Positions 1,121-62,805 of a DNA stretch of 64,000 nucleotides are shown piece after piece; within the stretch, counting starts at the first letter, position 1, and every line of letters begins with the position of its first letter. The stretch is from Nonlabens sp. GTDB taxonomy: Bacteria; Bacteroidota; Bacteroidia; Flavobacteriales; Flavobacteriaceae. A program made the translations under genes and the position numbers. The notes below the pieces were generated by a model that saw nothing but the letters and a program-made list of their open reading frames with translations, was not told the DNA's origin and ran no database searches. Location of the stretch: contig JAHDIQ010000002.1 in assembly GCA_020630715.1 (NCBI GenBank), positions 124,001-188,000 of the forward strand, written 5' to 3'.

Positions 1121-3430
1121 CTACTCATACTTCACCATCACCCTAATCGCTTTTAAGCCTACTACTCCTTGCACATCGCTTAATTCTAAAAGCTCGACCT
1201 GATCTGTGAGATAACCTTGTTGCTGTAAGAAAGAAATGTATCTTAAATACTCGCGCTTACTATCATCATTAGTGTAAACGATAGCGATCTTTCCTTTTTG
1301 GGTAATGCGCTCTTGGGTATTTTTAATATGTGCTTTATCAATACGCTTTTTAATCACCTCATATCTCGCATTATAAGCGCCATCAACATCAAAACGCTTC
1401 TCGTCTACTCGATATCTTACACTCAACGTATTCCCGAAAACTAAAATCATACTAGCGGCTTCAATAGCTACCGGCAACTCTTTTTGATATTCATAAAAAC
1501 GCCGTTCCATCTCTATCATGGTTTGCAATTGCCACAATCTTAAATTTGAAAGATACACCTGATCAAAGGTAGATTGAGCCGTAATACTATCTCCTATATA
1601 GATATTATGCTCAATTCCATCTGTTTTAAAACGCTCAAAAAAGTGTGGATGGATTTGTTGTGCATCCTTTTGCTTTTTGTCTAGATAGCGTGCTAATTTC
1701 TCATTAACCGTTTGTACGGTACGGTCATAATTATCTCTATGTACATATATTACATCACTAACATCATTTAAATCTGCCTCGTAGGCTTGGACTTTAGATT
1801 TTAATTCTGGTGATAAATTCTTGACATGTTTCATCAGTGGATTTACCTCATTTTTAAGGATTCCAGTGATTTCATTTTCCGTATTTGCGGTAACACCTTG
1901 CGATACTAACTCTTCTTTATATTGTTGAATACGATGATTTGTTTGATCGTAAATAGGTAGTGGTTCTTTTGCTTTCGCGAAAGCGAAAATCTCATAAACT
2001 CTTTCTAATTGATGTACTAAATCGTTCTCAACAGCCTGATTACGAGCATTACTGCTTCCCACAATATCAATCTGACCAAATAATGGATAGACATCTGCAA
2101 ATCTGATATCTGTGAAACTATCTTCTTTTTGGGCCAGATTAGAACGTAACAATCTACGTGCTTCTTTTTCAAATTTCCATTGCACGCTAGGATGAATGGA
2201 TGTACATTCCGTCTGTATCAATGCTTTTACACTATTGTTATATTCTTGATTAGAACGTACTAATGCGGCTCTTAAATAATGAGATATTGAATCTAATTTT
2301 TTAGCATTAAAAGAGTTAAGCTCATAGCCGTTATTACTTACCAGCTCTAGAACTCCTAACAGCTTACCATCATTGTGGATAGGATAAAAAATCGCACTTT
2401 TAAAACCTTTTAATTCTAAGTTTTTAGGTAAAAAATCGTTGTTTACTAGGGTTTTATAGTGAGAAACATCTGGGATAATAAGTGGTTCAAAACGAGCTAG
2501 TAATCTCTCATAGGAGTCTTTGCATAGCGCAAGATCGCAATGCTTCTCTGTCTCATCACCTAATAAAAAACTAGAGCTGTCGCCATATACCATCGTTTCA
2601 AACAAACGGTCCTCATGATTATATACTGTAAATCCTACCTCTAGATCAGGAAGTTTAAAAATCTGTCTAAAAATCAATTTAATATCTTCGTTAGTGTGAG
2701 TTTTATCATCCACACTACTCATAAGGATCGTCTTTAAATCAGAAATAGCTACATCTACAGTCACATCTGTCAATGAAACAATCCCAAAACCTACAAATGA
2801 ATAACTACCAGCTGGAAATTTCTCTTTCCATAAATCTAAATTATCTGGTTCTTTAAGCAAATGCTTGATACAATCATCTGATAGTTCATGATTTTTGTCT
2901 TTTAAATGAACCTCTACAAAATCTGCATTATAAGTAACTCTGTAAGTCTTTAAACTACCCTTTCCATCAGGTATCTTACAGTGCATAGGTCTACTTAGGT
3001 CTATTTGAAAATTGTAGCATTGATTTAAAATAACACCACAAGCCATTTTAAAATAATCAAAATCAGCATTCTCTAAAAAAGAAAAATCATCTGTAGCACC
3101 GGCATCTCTTAGGATATTTTCAAATCGCTGTGATTTATTAAATAGGAAATCTGAAAAAGGAATCGTCGCTGCCTTAATTTCATTTAGTGTTAACGCTGTA
3201 GGAAATAAATCTGCTAACAGTACTTTTATAACTTCCTCCTTTTTATCAAAGTCATTTATGGAAATTCCTGTTTCTAGTTCAGGATTACGAGCTACAAAAT
3301 CTAAAATATTTTGTAAGTACTGTTTTGAAATAGGATCATTTGTTGCCTCGTAACGGCTTTTATAGTGTTCTATCACCTTGTGAAAACTTAAGGTGACTTC
3401 CATCATAAAATCATCAGGTAATTGGTTCAT
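1121..3430 (-). CDS. Large GAF domain-containing protein
   Basis: The 769-residue product has no signal peptide or membrane segment and is probably cytoplasmic. Residues about 240-400 look like a GAF small-molecule sensor domain: it ends in the typical ...FKSAIFYPIHNDGKLLGVLELVSNN strand pair. The N-terminal ~240 and the C-terminal ~370 residues match no domain I can name; the C-terminal half is helix-rich. No output domain (kinase, cyclase, HTH) is seen. Similar long single-GAF proteins occur in other flavobacteria without assigned function. The peptide FAFAKAKEPL about two thirds of the way along is encoded by one copy of the genome palindrome (1971-1984). Confidence 0.65.
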   Translation of the reverse strand: MNQLPDDFMMEVTLSFHKVIEHYKSRYEATNDPISKQYLQNILDFVARNPELETGISINDFDKKEEVIKVLLADLFPTALTLNEIKAATIPFSDFLFNKSQRFENILRDAGATDDFSFLENADFDYFKMACGVILNQCYNFQIDLSRPMHCKIPDGKGSLKTYRVTYNADFVEVHLKDKNHELSDDCIKHLLKEPDNLDLWKEKFPAGSYSFVGFGIVSLTDVTVDVAISDLKTILMSSVDDKTHTNEDIKLIFRQIFKLPDLEVGFTVYNHEDRLFETMVYGDSSSFLLGDETEKHCDLALCKDSYERLLARFEPLIIPDVSHYKTLVNNDFLPKNLELKGFKSAIFYPIHNDGKLLGVLELVSNNGYELNSFNAKKLDSISHYLRAALVRSNQEYNNSVKALIQTECTSIHPSVQWKFEKEARRLLRSNLAQKEDSFTDIRFADVYPLFGQIDIVGSSNARNQAVENDLVHQLERVYEIFAFAKAKEPLPIYDQTNHRIQQYKEELVSQGVTANTENEITGILKNEVNPLMKHVKNLSPELKSKVQAYEADLNDVSDVIYVHRDNYDRTVQTVNEKLARYLDKKQKDAQQIHPHFFERFKTDGIEHNIYIGDSITAQSTFDQVYLSNLRLWQLQTMIEMERRFYEYQKELPVAIEAASMILVFGNTLSVRYRVDEKRFDVDGAYNARYEVIKKRIDKAHIKNTQERITQKGKIAIVYTNDDSKREYLRYISFLQQQGYLTDQVELLELSDVQGVVGLKAIRVMVKYE
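1971..1984. repeat. Palindrome GCTTTCGCGAAAGC, copy 1 (coding)
   Basis: An exact 14-bp palindrome inside the GAF protein gene. In the gene's frame it reads Ala-Phe-Ala-Lys-Ala. The flanks are TTTT on the left and GAAAAT on the right, so only the right flank matches the extended consensus (G-N-AAT). Confidence 0.9.
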
Positions 3431-3517
3431 AGTTCAAAGGTACAGCTATAAATAGAACAATAATCGAGTTATTATTTTTTAGAAATACTTTAACCCATCA
3501 TACTTAAAGGAAACTCT

Positions 3518-3525
3518 TATTTTTG
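3518..3525 (+). promoter_or_regulatory. Bacteroidota -7 element TATTTTTG
   Basis: A perfect TAnnTTTG element 15 bases before the ATG at 3541. It overlaps the possible TTG start at 3523, which argues that translation begins at 3541. I see no clear TTTG at -33. Confidence 0.45.
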
Positions 3526-3540
3526 AAAAAATTCCTGATT

Positions 3541-12079: not shown

Positions 12080-12249
12080 GTAAAATTCTTTTAATTAATT
12101 TGGTTTCATTAATAACACAGCAATTTAATGAAATAGCTAGTATTAATAGGGCTTGGCACTAGATATGCGTAGCTTTTTATTAACAGATTATCAGCTTAAA
12201 TGTGGATAAGTTTAACAAGATGTTTTCTAGACCTAAATGGCTGTATTTG

Positions 12250-12271
12250 TTACGCTTTCGCGAAAGCGTAA
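12250..12271. repeat. Palindrome GCTTTCGCGAAAGC, copy 2 (intergenic, 22-bp arms)
   Basis: The core is at 12254-12267; the perfect palindrome extends to 22 bp (TTAC...GTAA). It lies in the gyrA/clpC divergent region, 80 bases before the clpC start. The rest of this 271-base region holds no clear TAnnTTTG element that I can find. Confidence 0.92.
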
Positions 12272-12350
12272 TCACCACAACCCTACTTTTAACAATATGG
12301 TATGCGTATTGTACTATCATAAATCATTACATTTAACTCAAAGTAGCAAT

Positions 12351-16516: not shown

Positions 16517-18538
16517 CTAAATCAACCCATTGTACTTACGTAAGAACCATTCAAGACCTAGTAATACTAGAATGATACCTAGTAAATATTCCCAATCAAT
16601 TAAGGTGGCATACTCTGTTTTTAAGCGTTGTACTGGTTTAAACAAAGGATCGTTTTTCAATTGATCAATAACTTGAGCCGTGTTACCACTATAATAAACT
16701 TGATCTGTTCCTAATAGTTGTTTCATACCACTAGCATTTGCACTCACAAATTGTTGCTCTATGTCAAATTCTAAAATACTAAAATTACCACTGCGTGAAA
16801 GCACATCATTTTCTACAGTTACCGTAAAGCTATATGCTCCAGCATCCAGACCACTTAAGTCTACTAAATAACTGTTTCCTTCAAGAATAAATGGTCTCAC
16901 TTCAACAGCATTCAAAGATTTATTTTTCAATCGTAAATTCAAGATACCATTGTCCTCAAATTCATAATTTTTATCTAGGTATTGTGCATTTATGGTAATC
17001 TTATTGTTCTGATAATAAAAGGACTTATAATCTACCTCTAGCCTATTGCGCTTTTTATTACTAGCTAGATATTGCACCTGACTGCTCACAAGATCATCCC
17101 AGTTTTTAAAATCTTTTTGATCCAGATAACTTTGTGCGCGCCATCTCCAGAAACCTTCTGCTAGTAGTACCGAGTGTCTACTTTCACCATCTTCATAATT
17201 GTACCATAATGGTTGTACGGTTTCCACATTTCCTATTTTCTTATACATCAAAATGCTAGGAGCTGTATTCATACTCACACTACCAAAGGGAACTTTCACT
17301 GGTGGAAAATCGCCATAATCAAATTCCTCTAAATTAAAGCTAGCATAGGCCGTGTTTAAGATAGGTTGTGCGTCATCAAATTCCTCATCAGGTTCTATTT
17401 GATATGCTTTGGTGACGGTATTTAAAAAATCATAATCCGTATCTGGTCCTGTGATGGTCCATGTGTTTTTATTTAATAAGGCTGCTTGTGAATACGCTTT
17501 CGCGAAAGCTGAATCTGGACTATACATAATGACCACATTATAGTCATTTAAGTCTGGCTTATCACCAGTGGTAGCAATCGTTACAGAACGTTGCTGGTTA
17601 GATTCTATAGCTTTTTTCAAAGCACCTAAATCTGGATGCATGATATCGCTTAAGATCAAAATCTTAGTTTGTTGATCAATCACTTCAACGGCAAAATTCC
17701 TATAATTATTAGAAGTATTCTTTTCTGATTCTAGTGGTGCAATCGTTGCGCGCATGGATTGTGTTCCTACTCGAGTACTGGTGATATTTACAGTGACCAC
17801 TTGCGACGGATTCTCTGGTGAGAAGTTAAGTCGTTGTTGATGTAGTTGCTGTTTCCCGTTTGTGATTCTAAAATTAGTAGTCACAGCTGTGTTACCAGAA
17901 TAGTTTAAAAATACTTCTACAGGAAATTCGTTCTCTAGATAAGAATAACGATTCACATTAAGTTGAGTGATTTTTAAATCTGGATATTGTGTAGTATCGC
18001 CATAAATAATGGGATATAATTTAGTTTTAGCATCTACTTGTGCATACTGGTAATCTGCACCTACGGTCTGGTTTCCATCTGTGAAATAGATGATGGCTTT
18101 ATTACGATTCTTAAAAAGCTCTTGTGGTTGTGTGATCCCTAATTCTAGTCTAGAATCAGATTGAGAAAATGTTAGACTATCTAATGTTGCAAGCTCGTTT
18201 CCTACTGTAAATTGCTCAATTTCAAATGAGTTAGAAATCACATTTGACTGGTTAATGGTAGCTAGGTCTTTCTCAAGGTTTTGTCTCGCTTTTAAGTAAT
18301 CAATAGATTTAGAATCATCTACTACTAGCGCTAGAATAGGTTTTACTTCTTGAGATGTGGTGCGATTAAATCTAGGACCAATAAAGAGTAATAAAATAGC
18401 AAAAACCGTGAGAAACCTCAATAAGGCAAACCACGGTTTACGTGTACTTTTCTTTTTACTTGTAAAAATATAACCGTACTGGAATAAGGCTACAACAGCT
18501 GCTACAATCGCAGCAAGAATTATCCACAATAAGGTCAT
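16517..18538 (-). CDS. VWA-like membrane protein
   Basis: The 673-residue product has two N-terminal membrane segments (about 3-26 and 38-58), a large extracytoplasmic region, and one C-terminal segment (LLGIILVLLGLEWFL). Just after the second segment, ALVVDDSKSI carries the DxSxS metal-site motif of a von Willebrand factor A fold, and NKAIIYFTDGNQTVGADY fits a later strand. This resembles BatA/BatB-like or CARDB-type VWA membrane proteins of Bacteroidota. No MoxR ATPase is nearby, so the usual Bat operon context is missing. The gene starts 10 bases after fabG stops. A palindrome copy encodes AFAKA in DSAFAKAYSQ. Confidence 0.65.
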   Translation of the reverse strand: MTLLWIILAAIVAAVVALFQYGYIFTSKKKSTRKPWFALLRFLTVFAILLLFIGPRFNRTTSQEVKPILALVVDDSKSIDYLKARQNLEKDLATINQSNVISNSFEIEQFTVGNELATLDSLTFSQSDSRLELGITQPQELFKNRNKAIIYFTDGNQTVGADYQYAQVDAKTKLYPIIYGDTTQYPDLKITQLNVNRYSYLENEFPVEVFLNYSGNTAVTTNFRITNGKQQLHQQRLNFSPENPSQVVTVNITSTRVGTQSMRATIAPLESEKNTSNNYRNFAVEVIDQQTKILILSDIMHPDLGALKKAIESNQQRSVTIATTGDKPDLNDYNVVIMYSPDSAFAKAYSQAALLNKNTWTITGPDTDYDFLNTVTKAYQIEPDEEFDDAQPILNTAYASFNLEEFDYGDFPPVKVPFGSVSMNTAPSILMYKKIGNVETVQPLWYNYEDGESRHSVLLAEGFWRWRAQSYLDQKDFKNWDDLVSSQVQYLASNKKRNRLEVDYKSFYYQNNKITINAQYLDKNYEFEDNGILNLRLKNKSLNAVEVRPFILEGNSYLVDLSGLDAGAYSFTVTVENDVLSRSGNFSILEFDIEQQFVSANASGMKQLLGTDQVYYSGNTAQVIDQLKNDPLFKPVQRLKTEYATLIDWEYLLGIILVLLGLEWFLRKYNGLI
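17496..17509. repeat. Palindrome GCTTTCGCGAAAGC, copy 3 (coding)
   Basis: An exact core inside the VWA-like membrane protein gene, in the AFAKA frame. The palindrome does not extend beyond 14 bp here (C on the left, T on the right). Confidence 0.9.
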
Positions 18539-21156: not shown

Positions 21157-22074
21157 TTACGAATTTTTGATAAAGTTAGGTAACATTCTTAAGGCAGCCA
21201 TCTCTTTAAACTTTTGTTTAGCATTTGAAGCTGGTGAACCAAATAATATATCACCTGGTTCTACATCTTTTGAAACACCACTTTGCGCCATGATTTCACA
21301 TCCAGCTCCTAATCGTATATCACTGCGTATTCCTACTTGGCCCCATATTTTAACGTCATCTTCTATAATAACGCATCCAGAAATACCCGTCTGACTGGCG
21401 ATTAACACATGTTTTCCCAAAACAGTGTCATGACCTATATGCACCTGATTATCTAGTTTACTACCATAACCTATGGTAGTATCGCCACTTACGCCGCGAT
21501 CAATAGTACATAACGCTCCTATTTCTACCTGATCTTTTATGATCACACGTCCATTACTCAATAACTTATCATAACCATCTGGTCTACGTTTATAATAAAA
21601 CGCATCTGCTCCTATGGTAGTTCCTGAATGAATGGTAACATTATCGCCAATAATACATCGATCATTAATAGATACATTACTATGTATAAAACAATTGGAA
21701 CCTATCACTACGTCTGATCCTAAATGAACATGAGGTTGTAATACTGTTCCTTTTCCTATTTGAGGCTGTTTGGATTCCGCTTTCGCGAAAGCGAGAAAAT
21801 GAGATGTTAGTGTATTAAAATCCCGAAATGGATCTTCTGAAATCAATAGCGCTTTACCTTCTGGAGCGTCTACTTTTTTATTGATCAATACAATGGTAGC
21901 AGCACTATTTAAGGCTTTATCATAGTATTTAGGATGATCTACAAACACAATATCACCTGGTGTTACCACGTGGATTTCATTCATTCCTGTTACCGGAAAA
22001 GTAGGATCACCTACAAACTCACAATTGAGAATCGCAGCGATATCCTTTAAATGATGTGTTTGTGTAAATTTCAT
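21157..22074 (-). CDS. Second LpxD-like UDP-3-O-acylglucosamine N-acyltransferase
   Basis: The 305-residue product has an N-terminal uridine-binding-like domain (about 1-95, with GDIVFVDHPKYYDKAL) and a left-handed beta-helix of hexapeptide repeats (about 105-285, VVIGSNCFIHSNVSI, IGADAFYYKRRPDGYDK, NQVHIGHDTVLGKHVLIA, SGVSKDVEPGDILFGSPAS). The His in HIGHDTVLG aligns with the catalytic His of LpxD. It is a paralogue of the lpxD gene four genes upstream, shorter by about 34 residues. It probably N-acylates a UDP-sugar, possibly a different one. A palindrome copy (AFAKA) sits in the linker between the two domains. The ATG abuts the efp stop. Confidence 0.8.
   Translation of the reverse strand: MKFTQTHHLKDIAAILNCEFVGDPTFPVTGMNEIHVVTPGDIVFVDHPKYYDKALNSAATIVLINKKVDAPEGKALLISEDPFRDFNTLTSHFLAFAKAESKQPQIGKGTVLQPHVHLGSDVVIGSNCFIHSNVSINDRCIIGDNVTIHSGTTIGADAFYYKRRPDGYDKLLSNGRVIIKDQVEIGALCTIDRGVSGDTTIGYGSKLDNQVHIGHDTVLGKHVLIASQTGISGCVIIEDDVKIWGQVGIRSDIRLGAGCEIMAQSGVSKDVEPGDILFGSPASNAKQKFKEMAALRMLPNFIKNS
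21779..21792. repeat. Palindrome GCTTTCGCGAAAGC, copy 4 (coding)
   Basis: An exact core, 16 bp with its CG closing pair, in the lpxD-like gene in the AFAKA frame. The left flank ATTCC matches the extended consensus. The paralogous lpxD gene has YQMAKMSK at the aligned place without a gap. Confidence 0.9.
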
Positions 22075-25884: not shown

Positions 25885-27111
25885 TTAATCCTGTAGCTTT
25901 GGATAGCAATAGTAATATTTCACTACTTTTTTGCTTAATGCTTTCATGGTAGATCGGTCACCAGCGTCTGTTAAACTCTTTATTTTTCCTGATTTAGTAA
26001 GGATGTTGATGGGTTTTGCTTTCGCGAAAGCGAGATTACTCACAGCACCAGAGAACACAAAATACTGCGCCTGTTCTATAGTTAAGTCATAGGCTTTCTG
26101 TAACTTATGAATCTTGCTCTCTAATTTAGAAGTCACGACTGGTTGATCTGTAAACTTGATTTTAAGTAGTTGACGGTTTAGAATCATCTGGCATAATTCC
26201 TTCAACACAAAATCTGAATGACCTGCACCTATTTTAAGCGCAGTGATTAAATCTGTATCATCCAGCCTAGCAAATCGCTCTAGTGTTGTCGCTTTAAAAT
26301 CTGCAACGGTGACGTTATGACTAAGAAAGTATAACAAATCTGGTGGTAGATGAAACTCCATTCCTGTGTTCATTAATTCCTTATATCGCTTAAAAACAGA
26401 CTGGAATAGATGCTCTGCTCCAATACCTGTTTTATGTAGGTATACTTGCCAGTACATGAGTTTTCTACCAGTAAGGAAATGTTCTACGCTATAAATTCCT
26501 TTTTCTTCTACAACGAGTTGCTCATTTGAAACGTTAAGCATGGAGATTAATCGCTCGCTGTTGATATTACCTTCTGCAACGCCTGTGTAGAAACTATCAC
26601 GTTTTAAATAATCTAATCGATCCATATCCAGCTGGCTAGAGATCAATTCCATCATGAATGGTTTGTGGTATTTGCCTTGGAAGATCTGGATGGCAAGCGT
26701 TAAACTACCGTTAAACTCGGCATTTAAAGCTTCCATAAACTGGATTGATAAATCCTCGTGACTCACATTTTCTATAATGCTATGTTCCATCGCATGAGAA
26801 AATGGACCGTGGCCTATATCATGTAAAAGAATAGCTTTGTAGAGTGCGTCTTCTTCATCTACTGAAATACTAACATCCTTAGAACGTAGCACTTGGACTG
26901 CTTTTTGCATTAAGTGTAAACAACCTAGCGCATGATGAAATCTGGTATGATGTGCACCTGGATAGACTAAATAACTCAATCCCATTTGAGTAATGCGACG
27001 CAATCTCTGGAAATAAGGATGCTCTATTATTTTATAAACATCCTCATTAGGTATGGTAATAAAACCATATATCGGGTCGTTTAATATCTTAAGTTTGTTG
27101 TGTTGTTTCAA
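25885..27111 (-). CDS. HD domain phosphohydrolase (dGTPase/SAMHD1-like)
   Basis: The 408-residue product has HTRFHHALGCLHL (about residue 55), the HD motif in AILLHDIGHGPFSHAMEHSI (about 92-110) and a later Asp in QLDMDRLDYLKRDSF, the metal-binding set of HD phosphohydrolases related to dNTP triphosphohydrolases. Substrate is unknown. It is divergent from porX and upstream of lpxD. A palindrome copy encodes NLAFAKAKPINI near the C-terminus. Confidence 0.82.
   Translation of the reverse strand: MKQHNKLKILNDPIYGFITIPNEDVYKIIEHPYFQRLRRITQMGLSYLVYPGAHHTRFHHALGCLHLMQKAVQVLRSKDVSISVDEEDALYKAILLHDIGHGPFSHAMEHSIIENVSHEDLSIQFMEALNAEFNGSLTLAIQIFQGKYHKPFMMELISSQLDMDRLDYLKRDSFYTGVAEGNINSERLISMLNVSNEQLVVEEKGIYSVEHFLTGRKLMYWQVYLHKTGIGAEHLFQSVFKRYKELMNTGMEFHLPPDLLYFLSHNVTVADFKATTLERFARLDDTDLITALKIGAGHSDFVLKELCQMILNRQLLKIKFTDQPVVTSKLESKIHKLQKAYDLTIEQAQYFVFSGAVSNLAFAKAKPINILTKSGKIKSLTDAGDRSTMKALSKKVVKYYYCYPKLQD
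26018..26031. repeat. Palindrome GCTTTCGCGAAAGC, copy 5 (coding)
   Basis: An exact core in the HD phosphohydrolase gene in the AFAKA frame. The right flank is GAGATTA; the left flank is TTTT. Confidence 0.9.
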
Positions 27112-28700: not shown

Positions 28701-29108
28701 ATGGAAATTACTTACCGTATAGATGAAATAGATAAAGTAGCTGGAAAGATTCTCGCTTTCGCGAAAGCAAAATGCATCATCTTTAATGCTCCCATGGGCT
28801 CTGGTAAAACGACATTAATTAAAGCTTTATGTAGACATTTAGGTGTAAAGGACGATGTTTCATCACCTACATTCTCACTAGTTAACGAGTATCACGGTAA
28901 AGATTGTGCTATTTATCATTTTGATTTGTACCGAATAGAAAATCCAATCGAACTGGTAGAAATAGGCATAGAAGAATATCTAGACAATGATCATCACCTA
29001 TTTGTAGAGTGGCCAGAATACGCAATACCTTATTTAGAAAACTATTTAGAACTTCATATCTCTTCCTTGTCTGATACTCAACGATCTATTTCCTTAAAAA
29101 ATTATTAA
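28701..29108 (+). CDS. tsaE: tRNA threonylcarbamoyladenosine biosynthesis ATPase TsaE
   Basis: The 135-residue P-loop protein has Walker A NAPMGSGKTTLIKAL (about 28-42), the SSPTFSLVNEYHG switch and FDLYRIENPIELVEIGIEEYL, all typical of TsaE, followed by LFVEWPEYA. TsaE powers the TsaB-TsaD complex that transfers threonylcarbamoyl to A37 of ANN-decoding tRNAs. Its ATG abuts the porX stop, an order known from other flavobacteria. A palindrome copy encodes KILAFAKAKCI just before Walker A, at the place where relatives have other residues but the same length. Confidence 0.92.
   Translation: MEITYRIDEIDKVAGKILAFAKAKCIIFNAPMGSGKTTLIKALCRHLGVKDDVSSPTFSLVNEYHGKDCAIYHFDLYRIENPIELVEIGIEEYLDNDHHLFVEWPEYAIPYLENYLELHISSLSDTQRSISLKNY
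28755..28768. repeat. Palindrome GCTTTCGCGAAAGC, copy 6 (coding)
   Basis: An exact core in tsaE in the AFAKA frame, 8 residues before Walker A. Only the 14-bp core is symmetrical here. Confidence 0.9.
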
Positions 29109-32887: not shown

Positions 32888-32911
32888 ATTACGCTTTCGC
32901 GAAAGCGTAAT
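32888..32911. repeat. Palindrome GCTTTCGCGAAAGC, copy 7 (intergenic, full 24 bp)
   Basis: The core is at 32893-32906 and the perfect palindrome runs 24 bp, ATTAC before and GTAAT after the core. It lies between the divergent proline dehydrogenase and aroB genes. It is the most symmetrical copy in the window and matches the extended consensus fully. Confidence 0.93.
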
Positions 32912-37053: not shown

Positions 37054-38001
37054 ATGAAAAACTCACTTAAAACTTTTTTGTCTCTAATAGTCATGATTAT
37101 GATTATGTCATGCAAGGAAGATCGCAGTCCTACAAACGTGTTTCAACCAGCGCTAGTCACTAATGATGCTACTATTGAAATTAATGAACCACTAGAAAAA
37201 AGTGAGTTGATTATTATACCTCAATTTAAATCAAATCACATTGATAGTCGACAGGTGGAGATTTATGTGCCTAAAGGATATCCTGAAACTAACACAAAGT
37301 ATCAAGTGTTGTACATGCATGATGGTCAAAATGTTTTTAATAAAAACACATCAACGTATAACGAGTCTTGGGAAATCGATGAAAAAATGGATTCTTTACT
37401 TGCTATAAATGCGATAAAACCTACCATCGTCGTTGCGTCGTGGTGCCATCCTAAAAAACGTTTTAATGAATATATGCCTCAGCAACCTAGTGATTTATTA
37501 GATGCTGCTTTCGCGAAAGCAGAATTAAAAAAGCAAACCGGTTACGATGAGCTTTATTCTAACGATTACTTAAAATTTATCACTACCGAATTAAAGCCAT
37601 TTATGGACGAAAAATTCAATACCAATGCACAGGAATCCATCATCATGGGAAGCAGTATGGGTAGTTTAATATCACTTTACGCCTATATAGAATATCCAGA
37701 AATCTTTAAAAAAGCAGGTTGTTTGAGTACGCACTGGCCAGTACCTGTTCTAGGCGACGAATTCATCAATAGCCTACTAGAAAGCCTACCAGCATCCGAT
37801 GGAAGAAAGATATACTTTGATTACGGTACTGAAACATTAGATAAAGATTATGAACCATACCAACTCAAAGTAGATACTTTATTTATGAAAAAAGGTTATG
37901 ATCATTCAAATTACAAATCCCTAAAATTTGAAGGTCATGAACATAACGAAATGTACTGGAGAAAACGTGTAGCGATACCACTAGTGTTTTTATTAAATTG
38001 A
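37054..38001 (+). CDS. Esterase-like alpha/beta hydrolase lipoprotein
   Basis: The 315-residue product has a signal peptide ending in MIMIMSC (lipobox) and an esterase D/enterochelin esterase-like fold: RQVEIYVPKGYPETNTKYQV, YMHDGQNVF, the nucleophile elbow IMGSSMGSLISLYAY, and a C-terminal His in KFEGHEHNEMYW. It should hydrolyse an ester in the envelope; substrate unknown. The peptide AAFAKAELKKQ, encoded by a palindrome copy, sits before the KFITTELKPFMDEKF helix. Confidence 0.8.
   Translation: MKNSLKTFLSLIVMIMIMSCKEDRSPTNVFQPALVTNDATIEINEPLEKSELIIIPQFKSNHIDSRQVEIYVPKGYPETNTKYQVLYMHDGQNVFNKNTSTYNESWEIDEKMDSLLAINAIKPTIVVASWCHPKKRFNEYMPQQPSDLLDAAFAKAELKKQTGYDELYSNDYLKFITTELKPFMDEKFNTNAQESIIMGSSMGSLISLYAYIEYPEIFKKAGCLSTHWPVPVLGDEFINSLLESLPASDGRKIYFDYGTETLDKDYEPYQLKVDTLFMKKGYDHSNYKSLKFEGHEHNEMYWRKRVAIPLVFLLN
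37507..37520. repeat. Palindrome GCTTTCGCGAAAGC, copy 8 (coding)
   Basis: An exact core in the esterase gene, extending to an 18-bp palindrome (CT...AG; 37505-37522). It is read in the AFAKA frame. It is only 684 bases from copy 9, the closest pair in the window. Confidence 0.9.
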
Positions 38002-38189: not shown

Positions 38190-38205
38190 CGCTTTCGCGA
38201 AAGCG
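38190..38205. repeat. Palindrome GCTTTCGCGAAAGC, copy 9 (intergenic)
   Basis: A 16-bp palindrome (core 38191-38204) in the 245-base space between the esterase gene and pheT, 42 bases before the pheT ATG. The left flank ATTCC fits the extended consensus. I see no TAnnTTTG or clear terminator elsewhere in this space. Confidence 0.9.
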
Positions 38206-41633: not shown

Positions 41634-42464
41634 CTATGATCTTTTTGCTTGTCGTTTTTTCTTACGCGCTAGCTTACGATTTTTCTTCTTACGCTCTTTA
41701 GCTTTTTTCTCACGATATTCCTTAATACGCTGTGCGCGGTTTGCAAGGTTAATGCTGTCATAAGACTTTGGCAAGGCATCTTCATAAGCATTCCAGTTAG
41801 CACGACCTTTAAAATAGTCAAAGCTTATGGCACTTTCCTGTTCTGGTAAGGTTTCGTTTTTAAACTCATTGATTAAAATATCCTCGATATAAAAATCTTG
41901 AATTTCATTTTCTGGATCAAATTGAGCTTTTAGATCTAGATCAAAGACCTTTGCCGTATTATTCATCCAGAAAGCGCTCCAGCCATTACGTAAGTTTTTC
42001 ATTAATTCAAACGCTGTAATTCCCGTCTGTCTATGAATTAATTTGATTAAAATGTTACCATCTGTAGTAGAAAATTTCTTTAAATCTGCGGTAAGTTCTT
42101 CCTCCAGATATTCCTGAACCGCCTTAGTATAACGTTTTTTATCATTAACATATTCTAGTTGATCTAGTCGCTCATTAAGAACGGTAAGTCGCTCTGCAGC
42201 TAGCTTTGCATACGGCCATACCTTTTTTACTTTACGTTTTAAGATTTGGTATTTGATGTTCTCGTACTTACTGTCAAATTTCAAGGATTGGACTAACATG
42301 ACGCGGTCTAATTCAATCGCACTTACAGAGTCTCCATCGATAAAAAAGTATTCAGGCGTCGTGACCGTATCTTTTTTGATAGGTAATTGTGTGGTAGGTG
42401 GTTGCGCTTTCGCGAAAGCGAAATTCAAAACAACTAAAACAATACTCACCACTCTAAAACTCAT
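41634..42464 (-). CDS. DUF4294 domain-containing secreted protein
   Basis: The 276-residue product has a signal peptide (VVSIVLVVLNFAFAKAQ) and a DUF4294 region: YFFIDGDSVSAIELDRVMLV, KVKKVWPYAKLAAERL and LIKLIHRQTGITAFELMKNL. The C-terminal ~40 residues are very basic (KEYREKKAKERKKKNRKL). Function is unknown; it is predicted to be periplasmic or outer-surface. The AKA before the predicted signal peptidase site is encoded by the genome palindrome. Confidence 0.8.
   Translation of the reverse strand: MSFRVVSIVLVVLNFAFAKAQPPTTQLPIKKDTVTTPEYFFIDGDSVSAIELDRVMLVQSLKFDSKYENIKYQILKRKVKKVWPYAKLAAERLTVLNERLDQLEYVNDKKRYTKAVQEYLEEELTADLKKFSTTDGNILIKLIHRQTGITAFELMKNLRNGWSAFWMNNTAKVFDLDLKAQFDPENEIQDFYIEDILINEFKNETLPEQESAISFDYFKGRANWNAYEDALPKSYDSINLANRAQRIKEYREKKAKERKKKNRKLARKKKRQAKRS
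42406..42419. repeat. Palindrome GCTTTCGCGAAAGC, copy 10 (coding, at signal peptidase site)
   Basis: An exact core, 16 bp with closing CG, in the AFAKA frame, at residues about 16-20 of the DUF4294 protein, so AKA forms the -3/-1 cleavage motif before QPP. The right flank GAAAT matches the consensus. Confidence 0.9.
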
Positions 42465-47133: not shown

Positions 47134-47140
47134 ACTCCTT

Positions 47141-48555: not shown

Positions 48556-48571
48556 CGCTTTCGCGAAAGCG
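48556..48571. repeat. Palindrome GCTTTCGCGAAAGC, copy 11 (intergenic)
   Basis: A 16-bp palindrome (core 48557-48570), 30 bases after the aldehyde dehydrogenase stop. Both flanks fit the extended consensus (ATTAC before, GAAAT after). The rest of this 165-base space is AT-rich with nothing else I can call. Confidence 0.9.
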
Positions 48572-48691
48572 AAATTAAAAACACCTCCATAAATCACACA
48601 AAACCCTATAAAATAACCGACACCTAAAAAGTAGTTAAAATCGGTTTGAAATAAGCTTTTATGAAGTAACTTTATGTTTTACAATTAATTG

Positions 48692-48994
48692 ATGATCGCA
48701 TCCACAAACCATAACGCTAGTTTAAGTCTTGTTGCCCAAGATATACAATGGCTATTAGTGATCTCTTGTGTCATCATCATAGGCGCTAGCGTATTATTGT
48801 ACAAGTGGATGAATGATAGCAGTAAAACAAACCGCAAGGTATCTATCAAGATTGATAAAAATGGAAAATACCATTACCAAACTGATGAACAGGCTGGTAA
48901 TAGTAAATTGTTATTTTGGGTAAAGGTGATTCTTATTGTGATCGCAGGAATCATCGCCTTATTACCTTTTAAAGAATTGATCGTAAAAGACTAA
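48692..48994 (+). CDS. Small hypothetical membrane protein
   Basis: The 100-residue product has two membrane segments (IQWLLVISCVIIIGASVLLY and FWVKVILIVIAGIIALLPF) joined by a basic loop (DSSKTNRKVSIKIDKNGK). Unknown family. ATG 48692 is used; the TTG at 48689 adds one residue. It is 2 bases before the TsaC/YciO-type gene and likely in one operon with it. Confidence 0.5.
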   Translation: MIASTNHNASLSLVAQDIQWLLVISCVIIIGASVLLYKWMNDSSKTNRKVSIKIDKNGKYHYQTDEQAGNSKLLFWVKVILIVIAGIIALLPFKELIVKD

Positions 48995-52478: not shown

Positions 52479-53012
52479 ATGAGCATCAAAAGAATACTAT
52501 TAATAGGTGGACCTGGAACAGGTAAATCTACTGTTATACATACGCTAGAACAACGAGGTTACCTAGTACATCACGAGATTTCTAGAGAAGTAACTCTAGA
52601 AGCACAGCAACAAGGAATAGAACAATTATTTCTAGAAGATCCTATGGCTTTTAGTAACAGATTACTCGCTGGTAGGATCAACCAGTTTAAGAATGCAACA
52701 CTAGGAATTAATTTCTATGATCGTGGTATTCCAGATGTTCCTGCTTATCATAAATTTACTGGTGACTCTATTCCACAAGAATATATAGACGCTTGTAACG
52801 ATTACCGTTATGATACGGTTTTTTCATTGCCACCATGGAAAGCAATTTATCAAAGCGATAATGAACGTTATGAAAGCTTTAATCAAGCCGTTACCATTAG
52901 TAATATCCTCAATGAGTATTATAAAGATTTAAATTACGATCCTATTGAAATCCCTACAGGAATGGTAGAAGAACGCATTGCATTCATAAAAAAGCATCTC
53001 GCTATTGAATAA
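52479..53012 (+). CDS. AAA/NTPase domain protein (AAA_28-like)
   Basis: The 177-residue product has Walker A IGGPGTGKSTVIHTLEQRG (about 9-16) and a kinase-like fold with HHEISREVT, NFYDRGIPDVPAYHKF (Asp/Arg lid region) and SNILNEYYKDL. It resembles AAA_28-type small nucleotide-binding kinases; the substrate is unknown. ATG 52479 is preferred to GTG 52467. Its stop overlaps the recQ start by 8 bases (TTGAATAA). Confidence 0.78.
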   Translation: MSIKRILLIGGPGTGKSTVIHTLEQRGYLVHHEISREVTLEAQQQGIEQLFLEDPMAFSNRLLAGRINQFKNATLGINFYDRGIPDVPAYHKFTGDSIPQEYIDACNDYRYDTVFSLPPWKAIYQSDNERYESFNQAVTISNILNEYYKDLNYDPIEIPTGMVEERIAFIKKHLAIE

Positions 53013-54888
53013 TCAGGCCTTACATACTTTACAACGTGTTTATGGTCATCAGGAATTCCGTCCACAGCAGGAAGCTATTATCAATGCCGTCTTAGAAAAG
53101 AAAGATGTCCTAGCTTTACTACCTACAGGTGGTGGGAAATCTGTTTGCTATCAAATTCCTGCAATCATCTCAACAGGAATCTGCATCGTCATATCTCCAT
53201 TAGTTTCTTTAATTAAAGATCAGATTGCCTCTTTAAGATCAAAAGGCATCAAAGCTACTGGAATAACTGGTGGGATTTCTTATGAAGAACTGGATGCAAC
53301 ACTGGATAACTGTATTTATGGACAGTATCAGTTTTTATACCTAAGCCCAGAACGGTTACAACAAGATATCGTGCAACAACGTATTTCTCAAATGCGTGTT
53401 TCATTAATCGCAGTAGATGAAGCTCATTGTGTAAGTCAATGGGGACACGATTTTAGACCAGCCTACCGTAAAATTCATGAATTAAGAGAACTACATAAAG
53501 AAGTACCACTAATCGCAGTAACAGCTACCGCAACCGCACAAGTGCAAGAAGACATGACCCAAAGTCTTCAAATGCATCATCCAGCCATTTTTAAAGCGAG
53601 CTATAAACGCAATAATATTGCTTATAACATCACAAAAACTACAGATAAACGCTCTGATTTAATTCAGTTTTATAAACAACATTCAGGAAGTTCTGTTTGT
53701 TACATACGCAGTCGCAAGAACTCTATTGAATTCTCTAACTTACTCAATAGCAATGATATTAAAGCACAATTTTATCACGGTGGACTACCGCATAAACAGC
53801 GACAAAAAACCGCAGAACAATGGATGAGTAATGAAACCCAAGTCATGGTGGCGACAAACGCCTTTGGGATGGGAATTGATAAGCCCGATGTGCGCACGGT
53901 CACGCACCTACAGTTACCAGATAGTATGGAGAGCTATTATCAAGAAACCGGTCGCGCCGGTAGAGATGGTAAACCTAGCGTCGCGCAGTTTTTCTTTAAT
54001 GAGAATGACATTGCGCATGCACGTAATCAGTTTGTGAAAAGTCTCCCTACACCAGATGTGCTTAAATTCATTTATCGTAAACTCAATAATTACCTGCGTA
54101 TCGCACATGGTGAAGGCGCACAGCAAACCTATTATTTCAGCTTTGCACAGTTCACTAGAACCTATGATATCAATGGATTACAAGGATATCATGCCTTACT
54201 AGCACTAGATCGTTTTAGTGTACTATCGTTTTCTCAAGGACATAAAAGACGATGTAGTATACGCTTTCGCGAAAGCGGAATCAACATCACAAATTACCTA
54301 CAACATCAACCCGATCACAACGCCATATTACAATCCATACTGCGCACCTACGGCGGAAGCAAACAGCAATATATAGACGTAAATCCTGCGCTGATTGCCG
54401 TACGTAGTAATACCACAGAAGAACTGGTCGTGACCGCGCTACAATCGCTTAAAGATAAAGAACTCATCGATGGCGAAATCACTGATGCAGATAGTCAAAT
54501 CACTATGCTAGAACCTCGTGATGACGATCGCACGATCAATAGATTTGCGAGAGAACTAGATGCCTATAACAAGATCAAAATTGATAAACTCAATAGCTTA
54601 ATAGAATTGCTTTCTAACGATTCTAAATGTGTGAATCAGGTGGTTTTGAACTATTTTGGCGAGGATACTACTACGACTTGTGGCAATTGCAGTAGATGTA
54701 CCTCTAAACAAACTGCTAGTTTATCAATTCAGAAACTAACAGCACTACTGAAAAATAAGTCCATGAGCATTCAGGAGTTTACGGCAATGGGTTATCAAAA
54801 AGAGGTATTAATACCTATGATTAAACAGTTACTAGATCAGGGAAAACTGATACTTTTGCCTAATCAAAAATATCAATGGAATGGATAA
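53005..54888 (+). CDS. recQ: ATP-dependent DNA helicase RecQ
   Basis: The 627-residue product has the RecQ motifs: motif 0/Q FGHQ-like YGHQEFRPQQEAI, Walker A LLPTGGGKSVCYQIP, DEAH box AVDEAHCVSQWGHDFRP, VTATATAQV, ATNAFGMGIDKPDVR and ETGRAGRDGKPS, plus the zinc ligands CVNQ...CGNCSRC near the C-terminus. It has no clear HRDC domain and ends in a short winged-helix-like segment. The start is TTG 53005 (no ATG in frame before the motif), overlapping the upstream gene. A palindrome copy reads RFRES in CSIRFRESGI, in the region after the core. Confidence 0.92.
   Translation: MNNQALHTLQRVYGHQEFRPQQEAIINAVLEKKDVLALLPTGGGKSVCYQIPAIISTGICIVISPLVSLIKDQIASLRSKGIKATGITGGISYEELDATLDNCIYGQYQFLYLSPERLQQDIVQQRISQMRVSLIAVDEAHCVSQWGHDFRPAYRKIHELRELHKEVPLIAVTATATAQVQEDMTQSLQMHHPAIFKASYKRNNIAYNITKTTDKRSDLIQFYKQHSGSSVCYIRSRKNSIEFSNLLNSNDIKAQFYHGGLPHKQRQKTAEQWMSNETQVMVATNAFGMGIDKPDVRTVTHLQLPDSMESYYQETGRAGRDGKPSVAQFFFNENDIAHARNQFVKSLPTPDVLKFIYRKLNNYLRIAHGEGAQQTYYFSFAQFTRTYDINGLQGYHALLALDRFSVLSFSQGHKRRCSIRFRESGINITNYLQHQPDHNAILQSILRTYGGSKQQYIDVNPALIAVRSNTTEELVVTALQSLKDKELIDGEITDADSQITMLEPRDDDRTINRFARELDAYNKIKIDKLNSLIELLSNDSKCVNQVVLNYFGEDTTTTCGNCSRCTSKQTASLSIQKLTALLKNKSMSIQEFTAMGYQKEVLIPMIKQLLDQGKLILLPNQKYQWNG
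54263..54276. repeat. Palindrome GCTTTCGCGAAAGC, copy 12 (coding)
   Basis: An exact core (16 bp with CG) in recQ, read in a different frame from the AFAKA copies: Arg-Phe-Arg-Glu-Ser. The right flank GGAAT fits the extended consensus. Confidence 0.9.
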
Positions 54889-59525: not shown

Positions 59526-59536
59526 TTGTATGGCTT

Positions 59537-60913
59537 TTAAACAGATTTAAGCACTTCTTGTACCGCTGCTATGTTCATTTCTTTTTGGGTTCCTTCTTTC
59601 ATATTTTTCAATGTAAGCTGGCCACTTTTAATTTCATTTTCTCCCGCAAGAATCACATAAGGAATGGCATTTTTATCTGCGTATTTCATTTGTTTATTCA
59701 TCTTACTATTATCTGGATATAATTCTGCTTTGATTCCGCTTTCGCGAAAGCGAAATACCGCATCCATCGCATATTCACTTTCTACCTCTCCAAAATTAAT
59801 AAACAATACGTCTACACCAGCACGTACTGAGTCTGGAAATAAATTTAATTCTTCAATAACAAGATAAATGCGATCTAAACCAAAACTAATTCCAACGCCA
59901 CTGACATCTTTTAACCCAAAAATCCCAGTCAAATCATCATATCTACCACCACCACCTATGCTTCCCATCTGTACTCCATCTGGTGCAGCAACTTCAAAAA
60001 TACATCCTGTATAATAGTTTAAACCACGAGCTAAGGTAATATCTAGATCTAAAACAGCTGTTTTTAAACCATTCTTTTTGATCCAATTGCTAATAGTAGT
60101 TAATTCTTCTATCCCTTTTAAACCTATAGCAGAGTCTTTAAGTAAGGTTTTCATCACCTCTAGTTTAGAAGTAAAATCACCATCTAGACTAAATACAGGA
60201 TCGAGTAATTCTATGGCACTAGCAGTGATGCCTTTATCCAGCATCTCTTGTTTTACCTTATCTGCTCCTATTTTATCTAACTTATCCAGTGCTACCGTAA
60301 AATCAATTAATTGATCTTGAGCACCTATCATTTCGGCAATTCCAGCTAGGATTTTACGATTGTTAATTTTAATGGTACAACCGGTTAATTTTAAATCAGT
60401 AAATACAGCATCATATAGTTTAATGAGCTCTACTTCCTGGAGTAAGGAATCACTTCCTACTACATCTGCATCACACTGCGTGAATTCTCTAAAACGACCT
60501 TTTTGAGGACGATCTGCTCGCCATACATTTTGCATCTGATAACGTTTAAAAGGAAACGCAATATCATTCTGGTGTTGCACAACGTATCTCGCAAACGGTA
60601 CTGTAAGATCGTAACGTAAAGCACGTTCACTTATTTGTGGTGTTACGGCACTTTCATTTTTTGATGTTAATGCGTCTGCATCCACTTTTTTTAAATAAGA
60701 ACCATTATTTAAAACCTTAAAAATCAAACGATCACCTTCATCTCCATACTTTCCCATTAGGGTACTACTGTTTTCAAAACTAGGCGTTTCAATAGGCATG
60801 AATCCATACAACTCAAAATGAGTTCTAATGATATTCATAATATATTGCCTGCGCTGTACTTCTACAGGAGAAAAATCTCTTGTTCCTTTAGGTATCGACG
60901 GTTTTTGTGCCAT
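59537..60913 (-). CDS. hisS: Histidine--tRNA ligase
   Basis: The 458-residue product has the class II motifs: motif 1 region ETPSFENSST, motif 2 FRADR-like QNVWRADRPQKGRFREFTQC, the HisA region ALARGLNYYTG-like LDITLARGLNYYTG and motif 3 SGVGISFGLDRI, then the C-terminal anticodon-binding domain. It charges tRNA-His. The frame is open to 60964, but a promoter element lies at 60931-60938 and the residues before MAQKPSIPKGTRDF are not HisS-like, so 60913 is used. A palindrome copy encodes RFRESGIKAELYP in the anticodon-binding domain. Confidence 0.95.
   Translation of the reverse strand: MAQKPSIPKGTRDFSPVEVQRRQYIMNIIRTHFELYGFMPIETPSFENSSTLMGKYGDEGDRLIFKVLNNGSYLKKVDADALTSKNESAVTPQISERALRYDLTVPFARYVVQHQNDIAFPFKRYQMQNVWRADRPQKGRFREFTQCDADVVGSDSLLQEVELIKLYDAVFTDLKLTGCTIKINNRKILAGIAEMIGAQDQLIDFTVALDKLDKIGADKVKQEMLDKGITASAIELLDPVFSLDGDFTSKLEVMKTLLKDSAIGLKGIEELTTISNWIKKNGLKTAVLDLDITLARGLNYYTGCIFEVAAPDGVQMGSIGGGGRYDDLTGIFGLKDVSGVGISFGLDRIYLVIEELNLFPDSVRAGVDVLFINFGEVESEYAMDAVFRFRESGIKAELYPDNSKMNKQMKYADKNAIPYVILAGENEIKSGQLTLKNMKEGTQKEMNIAAVQEVLKSV
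59738..59751. repeat. Palindrome GCTTTCGCGAAAGC, copy 13 (coding)
   Basis: An exact core in hisS, read as Arg-Phe-Arg-Glu-Ser. Both flanks fit the extended consensus (ATTCC before, GAAAT after). HisS relatives have the same length at this place, so no insertion is implied. Confidence 0.9.
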
Positions 60914-60930
60914 AATAAAATTGAAAGCTA

Positions 60931-60938
60931 CAAATATA
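60931..60938 (-). promoter_or_regulatory. -7 element TATATTTG for hisS
   Basis: A perfect TAnnTTTG on the minus strand, 17 bases before the MAQKP start codon. It lies inside the longer open frame and so supports the shorter protein. No -33 TTTG at the right distance. Confidence 0.45.
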
Positions 60939-61037
60939 CTTAGTTCTTTAAGGTAGCGCTTCATAATTATATTTTAAAGTACTGTATTTAATCCTCGTAA
61001 ACTTGTAACATTGTAGAAATGATTGAGTCTTACCTGC

Positions 61038-62279
61038 ATGGGATTATTACGCCAAAACATCAATATCGCACAACAAAGTATTAAAGGTCAATTCCTACGT
61101 ACGGCGCTTACAGTAATGATCATCGCGATAGGAATAACGGCACTGGTAGGTATTTTAAGTGGTGTTCAAGCTTTAGAAAGCACCATAGGCGGTGGATTTT
61201 CTGGAATAGGTGCAAATACGTTTTCCATTCAGCGCCAGCCATTTAGTATGCAACGTCGTGGTGGCGGTGAACGTACTAAAATCAATCCCGTAATCACCTA
61301 TCGGCAAGTTAAAGATTTTGAAGAACGCTATGATTTTCCTATGGCCAAAGTAGGAGTCTCTTTTCAAGCCACCAGCAGCGCAGAGGTTAAAAGTGAGGAC
61401 CGCAAAACTAAACCTAAGGTTATCATCGCTGGTGTCAATGCAAATTATATAGATAATGCAGGATTGAAAATAGGTGAAGGAAGAGGATTTTCTAGTTTTG
61501 ACATTGCTAACAATGCTAGGGTTTGTGTTATAGGAAAAGATTTAGAAGACAATCTTTTTGAAGGACTAAATCCTATAGGACAAACTTTAAGTATACGCGG
61601 TAATAAGTTTACCGTCATAGGCTTATTAGAAGAAAAAGGTGCCACATTTGGTAACAACCTAGATTTAAGAATCCTAATTCCCGTAGATGTAGCGCGCAGT
61701 ATCTATAGCGCTTCAACGATTAATTATGACGTTAGTGTAAAAGTTCAAGATCAACAATTAATGGATAGCGCAAAGGACCGCGCCATTGTCGTTTTTAGGA
61801 ACATACGTGGACTTGCACCTGTAGAGGAGAACAACTTTGGTGTGATTCAAAGTGATGAACTGCTTGCTACTGCAAATGAATTAAAAGGGATTCTATATTT
61901 TGCGGCAATCATTATAAGTGGTATCACCATTTTTGGCTCTAGTATCGCTTTAATGAATATTATGCTAGTATCTGTAACAGAGCGTACTAGGGAAATAGGT
62001 GTACGTAAAGCGCTAGGTGCAAAACGCGGTACCATATCTTGGCAATTTTTTATTGAAACCTTATTAATTAGTCAATACGGAAGTTTATTAGGTATCGTTC
62101 TAGGGATTTTAGTAGGATGGAGTTTTTCCAGTCTTGTCTTAGAAATACCGTTCTCAATGCCATGGACACCAGTAATATGGGCTACCATTATTTCCATCAT
62201 TATTGCTATTTTTTCTGGAGTATTACCAGCTATTAAAGCTTCAAAATTAGATCCTATAGAAGCGTTGCGTTATGAATAA
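61038..62279 (+). CDS. ABC transporter permease (MacB/FtsX type)
   Basis: The 413-residue product has one N-terminal membrane segment (TALTVMIIAIGITALVGIL), a periplasmic MacB-type core domain (about 45-250; PKVIIAGVNANYIDNAGLKI, RVCVIGKDLEDNLF, FTVIGLLEEKGATFGNN) and three C-terminal segments of the FtsX domain, with the coupling sequence TERTREIGVRKALGAKRGTI. No ATPase is adjacent, so the partner (usually a LolD/MacB-like ATPase) is elsewhere. ATG 61038 is chosen over TTG 61023. It overlaps ogt by 8 bases. Confidence 0.88.
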   Translation: MGLLRQNINIAQQSIKGQFLRTALTVMIIAIGITALVGILSGVQALESTIGGGFSGIGANTFSIQRQPFSMQRRGGGERTKINPVITYRQVKDFEERYDFPMAKVGVSFQATSSAEVKSEDRKTKPKVIIAGVNANYIDNAGLKIGEGRGFSSFDIANNARVCVIGKDLEDNLFEGLNPIGQTLSIRGNKFTVIGLLEEKGATFGNNLDLRILIPVDVARSIYSASTINYDVSVKVQDQQLMDSAKDRAIVVFRNIRGLAPVEENNFGVIQSDELLATANELKGILYFAAIIISGITIFGSSIALMNIMLVSVTERTREIGVRKALGAKRGTISWQFFIETLLISQYGSLLGIVLGILVGWSFSSLVLEIPFSMPWTPVIWATIISIIIAIFSGVLPAIKASKLDPIEALRYE

Positions 62280-62805
62280 CATAGCGATAGGCTATTATAA
62301 AACTCCTGCTGGCGAACTTATCATAGGATCATTTCAAGATCACATATGCTTATGTGATTGGCGTTATCGTAAACAGCGAGAGCATATTGATCAACGTATT
62401 AAAAATGGATTAAATGCAAATTTTCGCCACGATTTTACGACCTTACATCAGGAATTAATTACGCAACTAGAATCCTATTTCAATGGATCGCTACAGCAAT
62501 TTACTATTCCATTACTTACGGTAGGAACTCCATTTCAAAAAAAAGTGTGGCAGGAATTACAACAGCTTTCTTATGGTAGTACGGTTAGTTATGCCTCGCT
62601 TTCGCGAAAGCTAGAACAACCAGAAGCTATTAGAGCCGTTGCAACTGCAAATGGAGCAAATGCTATATCGATCCTAATACCATGTCATCGTATGATAGGT
62701 TCAAATGGCAGTTTAACAGGTTATGCTGGCGGATTAAACGCAAAGAAAAAACTCCTTCAATTTGAAGGAGCTTTAGGTAATGAGCAATTGGATCTTTTTA
62801 ATTAA
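62272..62805 (+). CDS. ogt: Methylated-DNA--protein-cysteine methyltransferase
   Basis: The 177-residue product has the alkyltransferase motif IPCHRMIG with the acceptor Cys (about residue 143), the helix-turn-helix FQKKVWQELQQLSYGSTVSY, RAVATANGANAISI and NGSLTGYAGGL. It repairs O6-alkylguanine. The start overlaps the permease stop (ATGAATAA). A palindrome copy reads SLSRK at SYASLSRKLEQPEA, where other family members have a residue stretch of equal length. Confidence 0.93.
   Translation: MNNIAIGYYKTPAGELIIGSFQDHICLCDWRYRKQREHIDQRIKNGLNANFRHDFTTLHQELITQLESYFNGSLQQFTIPLLTVGTPFQKKVWQELQQLSYGSTVSYASLSRKLEQPEAIRAVATANGANAISILIPCHRMIGSNGSLTGYAGGLNAKKKLLQFEGALGNEQLDLFN
62598..62611. repeat. Palindrome GCTTTCGCGAAAGC, copy 14 (coding)
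   Basis: An exact core in ogt, read in the third frame as Ser-Leu-Ser-Arg-Lys. The symmetrical part is limited to the 14-bp core. Confidence 0.9.

Follow-up and report, generated by a model that had tools for sequence, protein, structure and literature searches.

The 14-bp palindrome GCTTTCGCGAAAGC occurs in 14 exact copies in a 64,000-nucleotide stretch of Nonlabens sp. contig JAHDIQ010000002.1 (positions 124,001 to 188,000; referred to here as the window) and in hundreds of copies in the genome to which this stretch belongs. The sites are exact, abundant and evenly spaced; they originate mostly by substitution, are conserved in place, have half-arms that vary independently of each other, and are also present in some phage genomes. 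The even spacing, the exactness, the indifference to gene context, and the occurrence in phages of a resident type together suggest that coverage of the chromosome by a duplex site, bound by a protein, is under selection. Our leading, still tentative, reading is that the 14-mer forms the core of a putative protein-bound duplex site that would serve as a chromosome-wide landmark in DNA organization or maintenance, a function that we infer from patterns in the sequence.

Abundance, exactness and taxonomic range

The 14 exact copies claimed in the first-pass annotation of the window were all present, and no match was found in 100 dinucleotide-preserving shuffles. The GC content, assumed there to be near 38%, was slightly lower (32 to 37% in 4-kb blocks of the window). 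Its placement of the copies in unrelated genes and intergenic spaces held, with no mobile element seen and with iteration that is gene independent and genome wide. A scan of every window position gave no form of GCTTTCGCGAAAGC with 1 or 2 mismatches and a single copy with 3 mismatches. The exact palindromes lie as follows relative to genes and open reading frames (ORFs):

1971..1984, within ORF 1121-3430 (minus strand); codes for AFAKA
12254..12267, at the 5' end of the longest ORF 12237-14957 (plus strand), Clp-type ATPase; possibly leader DNA
17496..17509, within ORF 16517-18538 (minus strand); codes for AFAKA
21779..21792, within the LpxD-like gene 21157-22074 (minus strand); codes for AFAKA
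26018..26031, within ORF 25885-27111 (minus strand), weak match to dGTPase type; codes for AFAKA
28755..28768, within tsaE 28701-29108 (plus strand); codes for AFAKA
32893..32906, in the gap separating the divergent ORFs 31646-32818 (minus strand) and 32962-34023 (plus strand)
37507..37520, within the esterase-like ORF 37054-38001 (plus strand); codes for AFAKA; the orthologues in two other Nonlabens genomes (G201 and G206) lack the site and align without gaps
38191..38204, upstream of pheT 38247-40670 (plus strand)
42406..42419, close to the start of the DUF4294 gene 41634-42464 (minus strand); codes for AFAKA
48557..48570, intergenic, between ORFs 47102-48526 (plus strand) and 48689-48994 (plus strand)
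54263..54276, within recQ 53005-54888 (plus strand); codes for RFRES
59738..59751, within hisS 59537-60964 (minus strand); codes for RFRES
62598..62611, within the O6-methylguanine methyltransferase gene 62272-62805 (plus strand); codes for LSRK

The home genome (Nonlabens sp., 2,978,537 bases in 17 contigs; G000) contains 609 exact copies of GCTTTCGCGAAAGC, compared with 0 in the reversed-sequence control, and 765 copies within 2 mismatches, compared with 6 in the control. In a 464-kb sample of this genome, we counted 92 copies, where an order-5 Markov model expects 0.45 if sites are included in training and 0.0003 if they are masked; run on the joined stretches, the same analysis counts 93, as joining non-adjacent ends completed one cut copy. 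Thus, the palindrome is neither confined to the window nor close to its Markov expectation, the two outcomes that the first-pass annotation had named as speaking against its proposal. The ratio of observed to expected copies was 1.7e5, 527, 13, and 1.4 at 0, 1, 2, and 3 mismatches, respectively. This series is one of threshold recognition, and we count it in favor of a landmark. A graded excess of near-matches is also treated as a trace of uptake in parts of PMC1939737 and in this respect fits the alternative that GCTTTCGCGAAAGC is a DNA uptake signal, in which preference of a receptor for palindrome-bearing DNA biases uptake and recombination then spreads the copies; the drop from 0 to 1 mismatch is ~320-fold here versus 82- to 92-fold for the uptake signals in that text.

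All 23 Nonlabens genomes examined carry the palindrome, in 288 to 857 copies, and the lowest counts (288 and 457) come from assemblies that are 77 to 78% complete. Among named genomes, N. ulvanivorans PLR has 566 copies, N. xylanidelens has 664, N. antarcticus has 611, and Dokdonia sp. MAG-87 has 685. HisS relatives assign the home genome to Nonlabens: six named Nonlabens loci are 75 to 78% identical to it in HisS, and the next genera are at most 70% identical. In a draw of 397 genomes from 237 genera of the family, 80 had any copy, and hundreds were present only in Nonlabens, genus g190 (408), and genus g206 (857), with 0 to 19 copies in the remaining genera; in a draw of 295 genomes from the class, no genome outside the family had more than 2 copies. 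In the comparisons below, G201, G204, and G206 are other Nonlabens genomes, G251 is a genome of g206, and G190 is a genome of g190. Genus g206 may be Dokdonia because G251 groups with a Dokdonia metagenome-assembled genome (MAG) in a ParB tree (support 94/87). With regard to a single origin of the palindrome-rich lineages, this tree has 2 changes of state, and one clade was not rejected (approximately unbiased test, p-AU 0.346).

The sporadic copies in palindrome-poor genera are partly clustered, and some have near-identical flanks across genera. Several loci from different palindrome-poor genera (L017, L019, L023, and others) have sites in common with near-identical flanks and a spacing of 933 bp. 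The proteins of L017, the sole such stretch read, are encoded by genes of a copper-efflux type as judged by reading rather than by family search. Shared stretches of this type are likely a trace of transfer between genera.

Spacing, origin and conservation of the sites

In the 464-kb sample, 88 intervals had a mean of ~5 kb and a coefficient of variation (CV) of 0.47 versus 0.96 in simulations, and 0 of 20,000 simulations were as even. Intervals shorter than 1.5 kb were rare (4 versus 22.7 expected), and the longest interval was 11.9 kb (23.6 kb expected). Close pairs are avoided in G251 and G190 too, at site positions that are mostly different, with P values for the CV of 0.0013 and 0.0065, respectively. 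The stretches used for the latter value omitted the segment at 80-100 kb of G190, part of a known gap; the 99 listed G190 intervals including the gap were more even than random (P = 5e-5). A chromosome assembled as a single contig had 2 to 9 sites per 20 kb all the way round, with no trend by eye between origin and terminus.

Even spacing is also among the points that favor an uptake signal, and about one site per 5 kb has the coverage logic of Chi. Chi sites, read by RecBCD or AddAB, have a density near one per 5 kb and are spread through genes, as here. In a Chi-like role, an AddAB/RecBCD-type enzyme would stop degrading at the palindrome and load RecA, and the palindrome would work from either side. 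Known Chi sites, however, are short and oriented, whereas the site here is palindromic, long, and duplex symmetric with similar arms on both sides.

Aligned loci support substitution as the main source of the sites, which keep their positions far more often than the background does. The recQ site was exact in all 23 covering aligned rows (21 different genomes), with variable adjacent codons. For hisS, 12 of the 13 Nonlabens rows (with two genomes represented twice) had the exact site, which was absent from N. ulvanivorans PLR; the Dokdonia orthologue aligns without gaps and carries its site at another point of the gene. The O6-methylguanine methyltransferase site was exact in 5 of 7 aligned rows and had one mismatch in the other 2. 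For genes of the RecQ region, taken from one locus per genome, a site was kept in 480 of 486 species pairs (26 gene groups, three shared site columns) versus 3.3% for other 14-mers. Around recQ, sites lie at similar distances in related species without all being homologous; in G201, one lies +5.3 kb from recQ, and hisS has none. In all 6 Nonlabens whose parB was read, a site that encodes LSRK is located in the linker of the gene; at the matching position of the cut stretch, the Dokdonia MAG and G190 have a site in their parB loci as well. In the home genome, the chromosomal parB (G000:C10:191675-191953) lies ~3.7 kb past the window end.

In pairwise comparisons, the home genome had 7 sites in common with G201 (6 and 3 private; background 2.5% at 70% nucleotide identity), 4 with G206 (6 and 5 private), and 5 with G204 (2 and 2 private), while G201 and G206 had 12 in common (4 and 5 private; background 10.5%). 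Comparisons between genera gave 0 to 2 common sites each. In the three best-sampled Nonlabens pairs, private sites were free of gaps in 5/9, 7/11, and 8/9 cases.

These alignments bear on derivation from a mobile or repeat element, such as a repetitive extragenic palindromic (REP) sequence, a miniature inverted-repeat transposable element (MITE), or a palindromic insertion. The many exact copies fit such an element, as does an indel within 30 nt at 6 of 10 private sites between the home genome and G251. By contrast, REP sequences and MITEs insert at new places, whereas many private sites here align gap-free, also in hisS between genera; moreover, the flanks vary among copies, and there are no paired arms. 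We regard this origin as very improbable.

Gene-independent dispersal and an origin by substitution are, on the other hand, as in the Haemophilus uptake signals in parts of PMC1626085. The uptake signals of Pasteurellaceae and Neisseriaceae resemble the palindrome in their hundreds of copies, substitution origin, and graded near-matches, and those of Pasteurellaceae also have flanking motifs beyond the core (PMC1626085 and PMC1939737).

The extended site, its gene context and candidate readers

Beyond the core, both sides of the sites have C at position -1 and T at positions -3 and -4, together with an arm that is poor in C, rich in G/T, and extends to approximately -28; this pattern is weak in G190. 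At noncoding sites, the C frequency in the arms is 0.076 versus 0.172 in the background, and the depletion is weaker at coding sites; the C depletion is, therefore, no codon effect. The resemblance between the two arms of a single site is no greater than that between permuted arms (P = 0.20 to 0.67 in four genomes). Because the arms do not covary, we rejected a hairpin of RNA or single-stranded DNA and read the site as a duplex, the symmetry of which would reflect a pair of half-sites that vary independently, as expected where a protein dimer binds duplex DNA. The full site is, as predicted from these patterns, a symmetric duplex footprint of ~70 bp around the 14-bp core. The right half of GCTTTCGCGAAAGC, GCGAAAGC, which we take to be equal to a stable mini-hairpin, is in mild excess outside the 14-mers (21 versus 12.7).

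With genes called by simple ORF rules in a portion of every genome, we found 61 of the 92 sites of the home sample in ORFs, which make up 90% of the bases. All three reading frames are used, giving AFAK 33 times, LSRK 15 times, and FRES 13 times. The corresponding numbers of sites in ORFs are 64/103 in G204, 35/59 in G251, and 29/35 in G190. A transcription terminator, a promoter box, or a protein-level repeat might account for the noncoding enrichment in three of the four genomes (weak in G190). Most sites are nonetheless genic and in three frames, the home sample has no excess between convergent genes, the flanks are T-rich before and A-rich after the core, which is the reverse of a terminator, and the arms do not covary. 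This explanation, too, has very little probability.

The arms also touch on the Chi-like role. Each strand, read 5'-3' toward the core, is rich in G/T and poor in C, which corresponds to the preference of RecA, and a defense island lacks sites. Recognition of a single strand, however, does not need duplex half-site symmetry, and the period-3 signal in the arms, a possible trace of RecA triplets, was not significant (P = 0.26). Overall, we consider a Chi-like role unlikely, slightly more so than uptake.

A further alternative is a by-product of the HIP1 type, in which methylation within the palindrome together with methyl-directed repair would bias mutation without a selected function. It is favored by the TCGCGA core within a palindrome and by C6 to T being the commonest change in one-mismatch copies of the home genome (7/14) and G251 (6/18), an excess that is a possible hint of cytosine modification. 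Elhai (2015; PMC4390886) proposes such a ratchet for highly iterated palindromes (HIPs), where an additional site close to an existing one brings no gain. Against it, C6 to T accounts for 0/7, 0/5, and 0/1 one-mismatch copies in the other three samples, and TCGCGA outside the 14-mer is at expectation (56 versus 57).

Profile searches in 23 genomes (9 palindrome rich and 14 palindrome free) bear on both marking and uptake. A C5 methyltransferase (PF00145), the one methyltransferase type searched for, was matched in 5/9 rich and 8/14 palindrome-free genomes and had no match in 4/9 rich genomes. The enzyme is, therefore, not tied to the palindrome; C5-methyltransferase marking is disfavored, and we judge a by-product of the HIP1 type improbable. 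The T2SSE/PilB ATPase of type IV pili (PF00437), the one competence gene searched for, was above cut-off in 3/9 rich and 4/14 palindrome-free genomes and had no match above it in 6/9 rich genomes, including the home genome. Uptake by type IV pili is disfavored by this result. In addition, the site is a perfect palindrome, unlike known uptake signals. On balance, we consider an uptake signal unlikely, while ranking it next after the landmark. In palindrome-rich G199, the T2SSE ATPase match (C4, 336408-337520) falls in the second long site-free gap (332469-352822), a location that suggests that the gene may have been acquired.

ParB/Noc proteins (PF02195) were considered as readers and rejected, since their recognition stretch does not track the sites outside Nonlabens. 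ParB_N had one match in 8/9 rich genomes and 2 in G204. The ParB recognition stretch of Dokdonia and G190 is identical to that of palindrome-free G007 and G100. The Nonlabens stretch, on the other hand, differs from all palindrome-free ParBs read, which counts against the rejection, and ParB as a reader is disfavored. The canonical parS pattern had no match in any locus scanned, which says nothing either way. A plasmid search with one window gene gave a single distant match.

The related Nonlabens phages P12024S and P12024L contain 0 copies in 70.7 kb and no integrase among their annotated features; the lack of copies fits an uptake signal. Both avoid CGCG (9 and 10 versus ~43 expected), with GGCC at 0 and CCGG at 2, and this word avoidance looks as if the phages were under restriction. 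Among the matches listed, viral contigs in IMG/VR carry several sites each, mostly with consensus flanks (5 sites in a 27-kb contig and at least 4 in a 29.6-kb contig), some of them within predicted genes of the phages, e.g., for a head maturation protease. Site-bearing contigs encode an integrase (L170 and L188) or a Mu-type transposase (L210 and L179). The latter two are Mu-like transposable phages with the palindrome, and their hosts are probably flavobacterial. Sites in temperate phage contigs speak against uptake. The contrast in lifestyle between temperate phages with sites and integrase-less phages without is suggestive only; the contigs were found through the site, and site density in them is therefore biased.

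A proposed chromosome-wide landmark among known systems

By description, GCTTTCGCGAAAGC is a HIP, but it is not HIP1 (GCGATCGC) by sequence. HIP1 and other cyanobacterial HIPs are likewise iterated genome wide, independent of gene function, and shared by a clade (PMC4390886); the site here has a 14-bp core with arms of ~28 bp compared with 8 bp in HIP1. CdbA, a nucleoid protein of Myxococcus xanthus with >500 sites (PMC7156744), resembles the proposed landmark in its hundreds of sequence-specific sites, approximately one-third of them intergenic, and in its organizing role; roughly half of the CdbA peaks contain its motif, a direct repeat, in contrast to the exact palindrome here. The LexA motifs of Bacteroidetes (PMC8565304) differ from the palindrome.

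The 14-mer was absent from the 5.39 million open-access papers searched, and no named element matched it as judged from listings, in line with the first-pass annotation, which knew of no named flavobacterial element with this sequence; TTTCGCGAAA occurs in the open literature, in no paper on the present subject by title. The sites parS, Noc sites, and matS are palindromes read by a dimer, and they are few and regional. The sites described here differ from parS and Noc sites, which cluster at the origin, in lying all round one chromosome, and from matS, which MatP reads in the terminus, in numbering hundreds with no visible trend between origin and terminus.

The first-pass annotation had suggested a signal like HIP1 or one for uptake or the nucleoid. 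Its grouping with such iterated elements stands, uptake is weakened by the T2SSE results and C5 marking of the HIP1 type by the PF00145 results, and a landmark for the nucleoid or for maintenance remains. Its observation is confirmed, and the even spacing, the in-place conservation, and the longer symmetric footprint are additions of the present analysis. We rank the readings in the order landmark, uptake, Chi-like role, and HIP1-type by-product, the last three being weakened.

In the landmark reading, a putative lineage-specific homodimer would bind the ~70-bp site and use it, e.g., to anchor loops of ~5 kb or to load a maintenance complex. Selection would act on coverage, such that most parts of the chromosome are only a few kb away from the nearest site. 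An additional site nearby would be redundant and lost, while a long gap would be costly and would tend to be closed when point mutation completes the best near-match, whether genic or intergenic. With slightly less confidence than for the landmark itself, we propose a chromosome ruler: a self-spacing, exact ~70-bp site every ~5 kb in three flavobacterial genera that would be selected for coverage, adopted by resident temperate phages, and read by a putative protein.

Several observations weigh against this interpretation. Even spacing and an origin by substitution fit an uptake drive or a Chi-like role as well, and the profile searches found no protein that reads the sites. In G199, overall evenness over 93 intervals did not exceed random (CV 0.92, P = 0.25) because of long gaps, while close pairs were nonetheless rare (17% <2 kb versus 36%). 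With G199 gaps of 30 and 20 kb, coverage is not absolute, and the longest gaps in G251 and G190 are no shorter than chance (P = 0.35 and 0.28). The 20 kb read of the 30-kb gap (L368, G199:C4:299001-319000) hold a Wadjet-type island with JetD, an SbcC-like protein, DUF3375, and a WYL regulator, but the 22-kb gap of G190 contains, next to a 4,043-aa ORF, ordinary genes of the RF3 and RNA polymerase large-subunit families. Site turnover among the Nonlabens pairs is real, and two Nonlabens, N. ulvanivorans PLR and G201, lack the site in hisS. A fourth site column in the RecQ region occurs in a single species, aligns with gaps in the 12 remaining ones, and contributes no pairs. The gene-context counts depend on the simple ORF rules and partial genomes described above. 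Finally, the viral contigs were retrieved through the site itself, several share one site and are related, and their assignment to hosts is indirect.

If the ruler proposal is correct, loss of the putative reader is expected to disturb nucleoid structure or repair. Sites selected for their spacing would imply a scale of ~5 kb on which a bacterium gauges its chromosome, and an exact, countable site makes the idea of a landmark testable. The palindrome may also serve as a marker of gene flow from the palindrome-rich genera into others, with islands elsewhere keeping both the sites and their common flanks.

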